A program made the position numbers and the translations under genes. Source: Deltaproteobacteria bacterium (GTDB lineage: Bacteria > Desulfobacterota > Binatia > UBA9968). Taken from it: 64,000 nt of DNA. The notes beneath the pieces are model-generated. The model did not search any database. It was given only the letters and a program-made list of their open reading frames with translations, and was not told where the DNA came from. The stretch covers positions 1 to 64,000 of the forward strand of contig JACQUW010000211.1 of the NCBI GenBank assembly GCA_016210115.1. Reading direction: 5' to 3'. This document shows positions 14,210 through 51,659 of this stretch, one piece after another (positions within the stretch are counted from its first letter, which is position 1; each line of letters opens with the position of its first letter).

Positions 14210-14710
14210 CTAAACGTCGCTGTTCGGAAAATTTGCCGGATCGAAGGGATCGCCATTGAGAGCGCACCTGCGCTCAACCGGCACTGGATGAAGAATCGTC
14301 TGCAGTACGTAACAGCCGTTCTCGGCATTGCGGATAACTTTGGCAATACGCTCCGGGTTTTCCTGGGATTCTACTTCCAGACGTGTTTCGATTCCCAAGC
14401 TCCTTGCCTGCACCGTCTCGGCCAGAACAGAGCCTTCGCTTTTGAATCCGGCGGTGACAAAGACCCGCGCCTTGTCGATTCTTGTCTTTAGCATTTCCCC
14501 GTACCGGGAAATCTGCGTGAGCAGTCAGAAGGCCAGAGAGAGCCCGAAATAGGCCAGGGGAGGAGGGGCACTGTTGTCCCCGCCGGTGCGCTCCGCTTCG
14601 TCACAATAAACCGTAAAGCCGCGCGACCGACCTTCTTTTCTCATCTTCCGGAGGGTCTCCGCGTCAGCCTCCAAAACAATCTCCCGTTTCACTGAAAGAT
14701 CTTCCGCCAT
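14210..14710 (-). CDS. OsmC-like selenoprotein (UGA at 14525-14527 read as Sec62)
   Basis: A 166-residue OsmC-family peroxide reductase if UGA is decoded as selenocysteine. Before the UGA the sequence is family-typical ([19 protein letters not shown]). The UGA is codon 62, exactly where OsmC proteins carry the peroxidatic cysteine. After it, in the same frame, comes [19 protein letters not shown] and a second half that ends the fold. The resolving cysteine is present as Cys133 in [11 protein letters not shown]. Conventional calling gives a 61-residue fragment and a second 'gene' beginning at 14494. The region just after the UGA forms a hairpin with a G-G-U apical loop (14493-14512) at SECIS distance. 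OsmC proteins reduce organic hydroperoxides; Sec would be expected to raise peroxide reactivity. It probably starts an operon with the thioredoxin-TPR chaperone. The alternative is a nonsense mutation, but the conservation after the stop argues against it. Confidence 0.88.
14493..14512 (-). promoter_or_regulatory. Predicted bacterial SECIS of the OsmC-like gene
   Basis: On the minus strand, 12 nt after the UGA, seven bases AUUUCCC pair perfectly with GGGAAAU around the loop GGUACG. The loop starts 20 nt after the UGA with G-G-U. Bacterial SECIS elements are short stem-loops 16-37 nt past the UGA with a conserved G early in the apical loop, so spacing and loop both fit. Within the coding frame the hairpin encodes ISRYGE. 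Confidence 0.75.
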
Positions 14711-49929: not shown

Positions 49930-50916
49930 CTATTTTTCTTCCTTGAGCTCTCTCAAGACTCGCGCCAAAAAGTCAGAGTCGGCCACCTCTTGAACCGGGA
50001 TTTCGGACTTGATCCCAAGCCGCGCTCGCTCGTCTGACATCATTTCCTGCAGAGACGAAACAGTGAACGTTCCGTCCCGAGACATGCCTTTCACAATAAA
50101 CTCAAAGGCCTGAACGATAGATTCCTTGTCCCACCCTTTAAACTCGCGCAGAATAACCGGTAAAACCTTCTCCCTGTTCTGTTGCACGTAAATGATACTG
50201 CGGACTGTCGCCCGTAACATCCGGTAGACCTGATCCGGCTGCTGCTTCATTTTCTTAACCGTTGTGCTTAGGCCGTTGGTGGGCTGTCCCTCGCCGCCAA
50301 GATCACCGGTCCACATGAGGTTATTAAACCCCTGCCGCTGGGCAATGAAGCTATGGGGCGCCGATAACATGGCGGCCTCGACCGATCCCGATTGCAGGGC
50401 GGCCAGCCGGACGCCGGTATCTCCCAAGGCCATAATAACGGCGTCTCGATTGGGATCCAGACCGAAATGCCGGAGGGCCTTCCGGGTCGCAGTGTCCGTG
50501 CTGGAGCCAAATGCCGAGACGGCGATGCGTTTTCCCCTGAGCTGCCTTACATCCTTAAACTGCGGCTGGGAGAGAAGGAAAAAGGGTTGCTGATTATTCA
50601 ACGCCAGGAGCACGCGCACCGGCATGCCCGCGAGGGCGGCGCGGATCGTTGATGAAAACAAAGTTGTATAGTCGACTTCTCCCGCGAGAAGCGCAGGGTA
50701 ATGAATCCCTGTTCTCATCACGACGAACTGAAGATCAAGCCCCTCTTTCTGGTAAAACCCCTGATGCGTGCCCACATAGAGCGCGCTGTAATCAACGAGC
50801 TTCCCGGGCATTGCGACGCGCACCGTTTCCATCCGCCGCGGCGTGTCTGCGGCTTTTCCAGTGGTCACGAAGACCAAAAGAATCGCCGTGGCGGCCCAAA
50901 ATAAAACGTTCTTCAT
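49930..50916 (-). CDS. ABC solute-binding protein, NMT1/THI5 type
   Basis: A 328-residue exported binding protein, paralogous to the one at 32.7 kb. A signal peptide ends near TTGKAAD. The fold landmarks are VRVAMPGKLVDYSALYVGTH, VDYTTLFSSTIRAALAGMPV and LRGKRIAVSAFGSSTDTATR. The ligand is unknown. It starts 42 bases after the rhodanese selenoprotein gene and 86 bases before the asparaginase-like gene, suggesting one transcript. No ABC permease or ATPase is nearby. Confidence 0.88.
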   Translation of the reverse strand: MKNVLFWAATAILLVFVTTGKAADTPRRMETVRVAMPGKLVDYSALYVGTHQGFYQKEGLDLQFVVMRTGIHYPALLAGEVDYTTLFSSTIRAALAGMPVRVLLALNNQQPFFLLSQPQFKDVRQLRGKRIAVSAFGSSTDTATRKALRHFGLDPNRDAVIMALGDTGVRLAALQSGSVEAAMLSAPHSFIAQRQGFNNLMWTGDLGGEGQPTNGLSTTVKKMKQQPDQVYRMLRATVRSIIYVQQNREKVLPVILREFKGWDKESIVQAFEFIVKGMSRDGTFTVSSLQEMMSDERARLGIKSEIPVQEVADSDFLARVLRELKEEK

Positions 50917-50958: not shown

Positions 50959-51426
50959 CTATTTTACCCGGCTACCTTCTGACGGATACCCCTTTTCGAT
51001 CCAACCCGGGAAGCCCTCGTAGAGAACTTTCATGTTCCGGTAGCCGTTCTGGTAGAGAATGCCATAGGCCAAACTGGCCAGGTGATGAGGGCAGGCTCAA
51101 TATAAGACGATCAATCGATCCCGAGGGATCTCAGTCAGATGCTTGGAAAAGTCGCTTAATGGAATGGAGACAGAACCCAAGATGTGAGCTTCTTTGAATT
51201 CCTCGCTCGTCCGCACATCGACAATGAGGGGTTTTTTCTTGGCCGTGACTTCATCCACAACCTGGTTCAGATAGATAAATTCAGGAGTCACCTCCTTGGG
51301 GAGAGTTTGCTGCGCGTATTGCGGATACCGGTTCGGGTCTGCCATCAATGCTCCAGGAAGAGACAACAAGCCGAGAACAGACGGGACCAGGGCAACGACG
51401 ATTCTTCTCACGGGGCGGTGATTCAT
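50959..51426 (-). CDS. Exported rhodanese-like selenoprotein (UGA at 51097-51099 read as Sec110)
   Basis: A 155-residue periplasmic rhodanese if UGA is read as selenocysteine. A signal peptide (to about ALMAD) is followed by the rhodanese domain: LIVDVRTSEEFKEAHILGSV, IPLSDF, then RLIVLY and the UGA at the position of the catalytic cysteine. The frame continues with ACPHHLASLAYGILYQNGYR and LYEGFPGWIEKGYP, the normal end of a rhodanese, and stops at 50959. Conventional calling ends the gene at 51097. Cys112, two residues after the Sec, could form a selenenylsulfide (U-x-C). A SECIS-like hairpin lies at 51061-51082. Rhodanese-type selenoproteins are a known theme. A nonsense mutation is unlikely because the downstream half is intact. 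Confidence 0.9.
51061..51082 (-). promoter_or_regulatory. Predicted bacterial SECIS of the rhodanese gene
   Basis: Counting from the UGA, a 4-bp stem GGCC/GGCC (nt 18-21 and 27-30) carries the loop AGUUU, so G is nt 23 and U nt 24. An unpaired U is nt 17, with CC/GG pairing outside it. In the E. coli fdhF element, SelB contacts a bulged U17 and loop bases G23 and U24; all three recur here at the same distances. Confidence 0.8.
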
Positions 51427-51659
51427 TAAAAGCTCCTTCAGGCTTCAGTATTGCGCCGGCTTATTGGAAATCAAGTGACGGCGATCATTACTTCCAATTT
51501 ACGTAAACTCTCGCTGGGAGATCCGGTTGGTGCAAAGATTATCCTCCGTTTAGCTCTTGCGTCAACCTGAACTCGATTCATCAAGGGTGGACATCGAGTC
51601 CGGTCCGGAGTATTCCTGTATTGAAAAAGAAGAACATGCCAAGGGGACGGAGCATCCGT

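Follow-up and report, generated by a model that had tools for sequence, protein, structure and literature searches.

A secreted rhodanese with a predicted catalytic selenocysteine in a U-x-C-P motif, encoded across an in-frame TGA in Binatota and Rokubacteria

Results

Gene and reading frame

The window, i.e. the whole stretch of 64,000 nucleotides that was analysed, carries on its reverse strand a gene with a single in-frame TGA (Table 1). According to the initial annotation the frame halts at this UGA after RLIVLY and then runs on to 50959, and direct reading bore this out, as no further stop is met until the final TAG. Besides the signal peptide the 155-residue protein has no membrane part. 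The N-termini of Binatia orthologues are variable and the junction A/S/G-[DNE]P-x-x-YP is kept.

Table 1. Features of the rhodanese locus and other genes of the window considered here
Feature	Position	Strand	Details
Exported rhodanese selenoprotein (predicted), whole gene	50959..51426	-	155 aa with U110; ATG 51426 to TAG 50961-50959
Ribosome-binding site AAGGAG	51433..51438	-	read directly; 6 nt 5' of ATG
Signal peptide, residues 1-29 (MNHRPVRRIVVALVPSVLGLLSLPGALMA)	51340..51426	-	sequence inspection; probable cleavage before D30-P31
In-frame TGA, codon 110	51097..51099	-	corresponds to catalytic Cys site of rhodaneses; TGA in 23/23 orthologues compared
Cys112, second thiol of the U-x-C-P motif	51091..51093	-	invariant in the Binatia alignment and in Rokubacteria orthologues
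Truncated 109-aa ORF	51097..51426	-	product of an ordinary gene caller
SECIS upper hairpin (predicted)	51067..51080	-	bulged U 51080, stem GGCCA/UGGCC, loop G-U-U (G 51074, U 51073)
Exported NMT1/SsuA-type substrate-binding protein, next gene	49930..50916	-	neighbour in this genome only; not considered part of the system
OsmC-like protein, second UGA gene	14210..14710	-	TGA 14527-14525, U-L-L-T

The joined sequence of 155 residues, read through the UGA, matches the Pfam Rhodanese domain (PF00581) over residues 62-144 with 59.1 bits against a gathering threshold of 22.2, which together with the signal peptide agrees with the proposal that an exported rhodanese is encoded. An AlphaFold2 model built from 23 orthologues (pLDDT 85.2, pTM 0.76) matched rhodaneses when compared with PDB (E 5e-8, probability 1.00). 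In the model U110 sits directly after the strand 106-109, and in the alignment it falls on the YC of rhodaneses with solved structures, e.g. 3tp9; this and the cysteine of distant homologues described below place the UGA on the catalytic Cys, as was originally proposed. U110 stands at the head of the active-site loop, where rhodaneses carry the persulfide. In the alignment this loop reads UACPHHL and there is no anion-binding loop of the CxxGxR type. The U-x-C motif that had been attributed to Cys112 is likewise found, with this cysteine invariant in the orthologues.

Conservation of the TGA codon

The orthologue search covered 148 genomes of the window's class and gave 22 further matches with 44-66% identity, which belong to the same family and order and contain exactly one TGA each. 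When read out individually, all 22 same-order orthologues had the TGA at the identical codon. Families near the window read LYUACPHHLASLAYGIL and a third family LYU[QA]CPRHL, while a copy from another class (G035, loci L018/L090) reads UACPHFLASLAY with the TGA at the same codon. In a wider contig scan of named records a query with the single protein sequence gave 0 matches and a query with the alignment gave 59 loci, the hosts of the Sec forms being Candidatus Binatia, related "Deltaproteobacteria" MAGs and Rokubacteria (Methylomirabilota). About 15 are Rokubacteria orthologues with UTCPHALARGAS and the TGA at the same codon, and one other record (L102) has USCPHHLASLAY. In total the Sec form was found in about 38 genomes (at least 37 relatives) of soil and groundwater bacteria.

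None of the orthologues from the Binatia order, G035 or Rokubacteria has cysteine at the TGA codon. Homologues with cysteine (codon TGY, YCACPHHLS; L109-L148) are found in Myxococcota, haloarchaea, WOR-3 and Melainabacteria, and thus the Cys counterparts with CACP at this place, for which the initial annotation had advised looking, do exist. A plasmid search returned generic rhodaneses only. The most economical tree suggests that the Sec forms are a clade of single origin which needs one change only, with weak support for the branch (39/0). The protein past the UGA is under strong purifying selection: comparison of the orthologues gives pN 0.172 and pS 0.687 (pN/pS 0.25) for codons +11 to +40, and dN/dS is about 0.02-0.09 in close orthologue pairs. 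The gene's own terminator is TGA in several Binatia orthologues and in the G035 copy.

The hairpin downstream of the TGA

Folding of the sequence after the UGA gave a hairpin, U-GGCCA-GUU-UGGCC (-10.1 kcal/mol), which begins 16 nt after the UGA. Bases were counted from the U of UGA as 1, which gives U17/G23/U24 for E. coli fdhF (the fdhF sequence was confirmed). The initial annotation had claimed a hairpin with U17, G23 and U24 at the fdhF distances; the hairpin and its contact bases stand, but the bases are actually U20, G26 and U27, and relative to fdhF the element is therefore shifted away from the UGA by 3 nt (one codon). The published bSECIS model asks for a loop of 3-9 nt with G in its first two positions, a stem of 4-16 bp, a spacing of 16-37 nt and a minimum free energy of at most -7.5 (PMC13188914). 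The present element has a loop GUU or AGUUU, 4-5 bp and a spacing of 21-22 nt, and these values and its energy fall within that model.

In Binatia codons +6 to +10 are nearly frozen, with a mean normalised codon entropy of 0.15 as compared to 0.73 at 54 other positions; serine is AGT in 20/20 and alanine GCC in 21/21 cases. At the hairpin pS is 0.18, against 0.69, and this synonymous freezing is confined to the hairpin codons. In Rokubacteria the encoded SL is changed to RG and the top, closing pair A25-U29 to C25-G29. The covariation score over Binatia and Rokubacteria was 0.202 against 0.068 for shuffled alignments (reached by 0/500), and it drops when the partners are slid, with the signal being essentially one event between two clades. 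Within Binatia alone no covariation was found, because the stem barely varies there. The full set of five pairs forms in 26 of the 34 Sec genes and in none of the 28 Cys homologues; changes on one side occur, as does one broken pair, U22-C32, in six sequences. Compared with shuffles, the folding energy does not set the hairpin apart (z -0.05), and no Rfam match was obtained over the gene. We take the hairpin to be a SECIS element.

Selenocysteine machinery and other UGA genes of the genome

The machinery for selenocysteine, whose confirmation the initial annotation had called for, is present in the window's genome: tRNA-Sec (76.7 bits), SelB (390 bits), SelA (523 bits) and SelD (381 bits). The selD, selB and selA genes are adjacent on one contig (G000:C216:9823-13975; L088, L152) and SelD itself has a UGA (GGUAAK). 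Because the assembly is binned with 8.9% contamination, the contigs with the machinery were compared with the window by composition. Tetranucleotide correlation with the window was 0.956 for the selABD contig and 0.933 for the tRNA-Sec contig, while the controls gave 0.91-0.93 for the window against itself and 0.37-0.82 for loci of other genomes. Contamination as the source of the machinery was rejected, since both contigs correlate with the window as highly as the window does with itself. Within the family SelB is over the cut-off in 20 of 25 genomes and tRNA-Sec in 16 of 25. Two of the 16 family genomes with the orthologue, G508 and G512, have neither tRNA-Sec nor SelB over the cut-off, probably due to genome fragmentation. 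Among Rokubacteria with the gene SelB is over the cut-off in 11 of the 12 tested.

It had also been argued that two UGA-for-Cys genes within 64 kb go beyond chance. The second of them, the OsmC-like gene (Table 1), proved to be real, and OsmC-like UxxT is a listed selenoprotein family (PMC13188914); for the rhodanese itself, the identical TGA codon in the 22 same-order orthologues goes beyond chance. The same genome (G000:C14:6314-6604, L158) has another rhodanese with an in-frame UGA, VYCNDYQUDLAP, in which the catalytic Cys is kept and the Sec lies five residues on (C-x4-U).

Gene neighbourhood

Directly upstream of the rhodanese a VKOR-thioredoxin fusion is found in 20 of 22 Binatia loci, and in 18 of these the two genes share 1 or 4 nt, the stop codon of the fusion running into the start codon of the rhodanese. 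The VKOR domain (PF07884) scored 85.7 bits in the one upstream gene that was scanned, and the thioredoxin-like part of the fusions has WCPHC/WCPAC. Locus L073 has kept no more of the fusion than the final residues of its thioredoxin part. The window's own rhodanese is not beside VKOR; a VKOR-thioredoxin gene is present on another contig of the same genome. In most Rokubacteria loci examined (L103-L129) the gene directly upstream is TldD/PmbA-like, as judged by eye from its sequence (VTDPHYNTLVSHEIIGHPVELDRALKMETAYAGRS). The SsuA-like gene that follows the window's rhodanese was not seen next to it at any of the 14 further loci for which downstream genes were listed. We know of no bacterial VKOR-thioredoxin fusion with a rhodanese partner, and a full-text literature search for rhodanese together with VKOR and periplasm returned only a general review.

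Among the Cys homologues, one from Myxococcota (L132 3218-4381) is fused behind two cytochrome c domains (Pfam) and several others from Myxococcota (e.g. L110, L118, L135) look alike, and haloarchaeal homologues resemble Tat lipoproteins with an additional C-terminal domain.

Discussion

The gene is, with a probability of about 0.95, a secreted single-domain rhodanese with Sec as the predicted catalytic nucleophile at UGA codon 110, inserted by tRNA-Sec and SelB by way of a SECIS hairpin within the coding sequence. The initial annotation had named three things that would speak against such a reading, i.e. a lack of Sec machinery, a sequencing correction removing the UGA, and relatives that stop at the same place with no conservation beyond it. 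What was found is the machinery, the UGA in about 38 independent genomes and a conserved downstream protein. That the TGA is an ordinary stop, whether the gene is decayed, wrongly sequenced or truly encodes a protein of 109 residues, is very improbable. The ORF of this length is what a usual gene caller yields and the assembly is binned and partly contaminated, but the 109-residue product would be without the catalytic residue, the Sec machinery is present, and conserved coding and the frozen hairpin follow the TGA that all these genomes share; an error of sequencing would not place the UGA at the same codon in so many independent genomes. Even less credible is a genome-wide reassignment of UGA to another amino acid such as Trp or Gly, for which the open frame past the TGA is the only argument. 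Several Binatia orthologues and the G035 copy terminate with TGA, therefore UGA is no general sense codon, and besides that tRNA-Sec is present and homologues have Cys at the site instead of Trp or Gly.

As for function, the coupling with VKOR-thioredoxin suggests envelope thiol oxidation, VKOR being the equivalent of DsbB in some bacteria. At not quite even odds, we favour a cell-envelope thiol or sulfane-sulfur redox enzyme whose U110/C112 pair is re-oxidised through VKOR-thioredoxin. Sec110 would take up sulfane sulfur, or attack a thiol or disulfide of the substrate; the Sec110 adduct would then be resolved by Cys112 as a Sec-Cys selenenylsulfide in the active-site loop. VKOR-thioredoxin would re-oxidise the rhodanese and pass the electrons on to quinone, a scheme that would resemble the replacement of DsbA/DsbB by PspE in disulfide formation in E. 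coli. The coupling, the PspE precedent and the cytochrome c fusion of a Myxococcota Cys homologue all favour such an enzyme. The mechanism is an inference and the VKOR link is not universal: the window's rhodanese stands apart from VKOR, and in Rokubacteria it is the TldD/PmbA-like gene that precedes the rhodanese.

A plain sulfurtransferase is somewhat less probable. Here the selenenyl-persulfide of Sec110 would give sulfane sulfur to an acceptor, in envelope sulfur assimilation or detoxification, and VKOR-thioredoxin would only keep the redox state of the enzyme or the acceptor. The rhodanese fold with its active-site loop, the Sec at the first loop position where rhodaneses carry the persulfide, and the SsuA-like binding protein as the next gene in the window are in accordance with this; the SsuA-like gene, however, does not recur in the other loci listed, the loop has UACPHHL instead of an anion-binding loop of the CxxGxR type, and the strict Cys112 and the strong VKOR-thioredoxin coupling favour redox work. 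Unlikely, on the other hand, is a Sec-containing envelope peroxidase or reductant-dependent detoxifying enzyme, in which the U-x-C pair would use the fused thioredoxin domain as the electron donor. To our knowledge no rhodanese domains are peroxidases, and VKOR oxidises its thioredoxin domain, which is the wrong direction for a reductase; in favour of this option are the thioredoxin-like domain with CPHC/CPAC in the upstream fusion and the fact that redox enzymes are the majority of characterised selenoproteins (PMC9312934). As a whole, the explanation by an envelope Sec rhodanese is very probable, its redox role being the less certain part.

These results matter in several ways. Standard annotation would cut the protein to 109 residues. 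The U-x-C form, with Sec at the nucleophile, extends the catalogue of rhodanese selenoproteins, and it does so in two uncultured lineages, Binatota and Rokubacteria, that are common among MAGs from soil and groundwater. Functional leads for rhodanese selenoproteins are rare; the overlapping VKOR-thioredoxin gene is one, and it bears on the use of selenium in envelope disulfide or persulfide chemistry. Literature searches on Sec in either of the two lineages gave nothing specific. PMC13188914 cites a MAG of Methylomirabilota with 63 selenoproteins, among which the Rokubacteria form may already be counted.

Comparison with known systems

A 2026 review gives five rhodanese selenoprotein forms, UxxS, UxxG, CxU, UxxG and UxxxxU, and separates subfamilies by the position of the Sec or by the motif (PMC13188914). 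The predicted U-x-C-P motif is absent from this list, to which it adds a motif class. Tentatively, and with somewhat more reserve than for the redox mechanism itself, we consider it an unlisted subfamily of secreted U-x-C rhodaneses coupled in translation with VKOR-thioredoxin, which would form a selenium-dependent envelope disulfide or persulfide route in Binatota, with Cys versions wired to cytochromes c elsewhere.

Closest among the listed forms is the third (CxU; NF041203, rhodanese_LYCAU), which shares the rhodanese domain and the loop L-Y-[C/U]-x-[C/U]-P and is the best NCBIfam match with 54.4 bits. Membership was rejected, as the cut-off is 115 and the Sec comes first here (U-x-C) and second there (C-x-U). 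Rhodaneses with C-x-U-P (YCSUPNEATSA) are present in the same bacterial family, in L085 (G511) and L086 (G505); the one in L085 stands behind a multi-helix membrane protein, whereas the gene described here encodes a secreted single domain. Genome G511 has the Sec/Cys pair in both orders. One and the same active site occurs in nature as U-x-C, as C-x-U and as C-x-C, which allows a comparison of where Sec helps.

Forms 1, 2 and 4 (PF00581; UxxS, UxxG) are likewise listed with a single Sec in a rhodanese domain and a motif that starts with U, but the motifs listed for them are without Cys two residues past the Sec (PMC13188914). In the TsoB rhodanese/DsbD fusion-like form (NF045694, UxxxxU) a Sec rhodanese is also joined to the theme of a thiol-disulfide membrane protein; TsoB, however, has two Sec and a partner of DsbD type (reducing pathway) in one polypeptide, and membership was rejected with a score of 30 against a cut-off of 805. 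Exported rhodaneses with C-x4-U (YCEGPRUALTP) were seen in L019, L023, L027 and L032, which come from small genomes of the same phylum and apparently encode multi-domain proteins, and also in L031 and L144; the review lists only UxxxxU and not this motif.

Outside of selenoproteins there is a likeness to E. coli PspE, a single-domain rhodanese of the envelope which is able to make up in part for missing DsbA/DsbB in the formation of disulfides (Chng et al. 2012, cited after PMC5403849). PspE differs in having a catalytic Cys, with no second Cys in the loop, no Sec and no coupling to VKOR. The bacterial VKOR-thioredoxin fusion (PF07884 with a thioredoxin-like domain) is the other known system to which the locus can be related, as the same architecture stands upstream of the predicted Sec rhodanese in nearly all Binatia loci.
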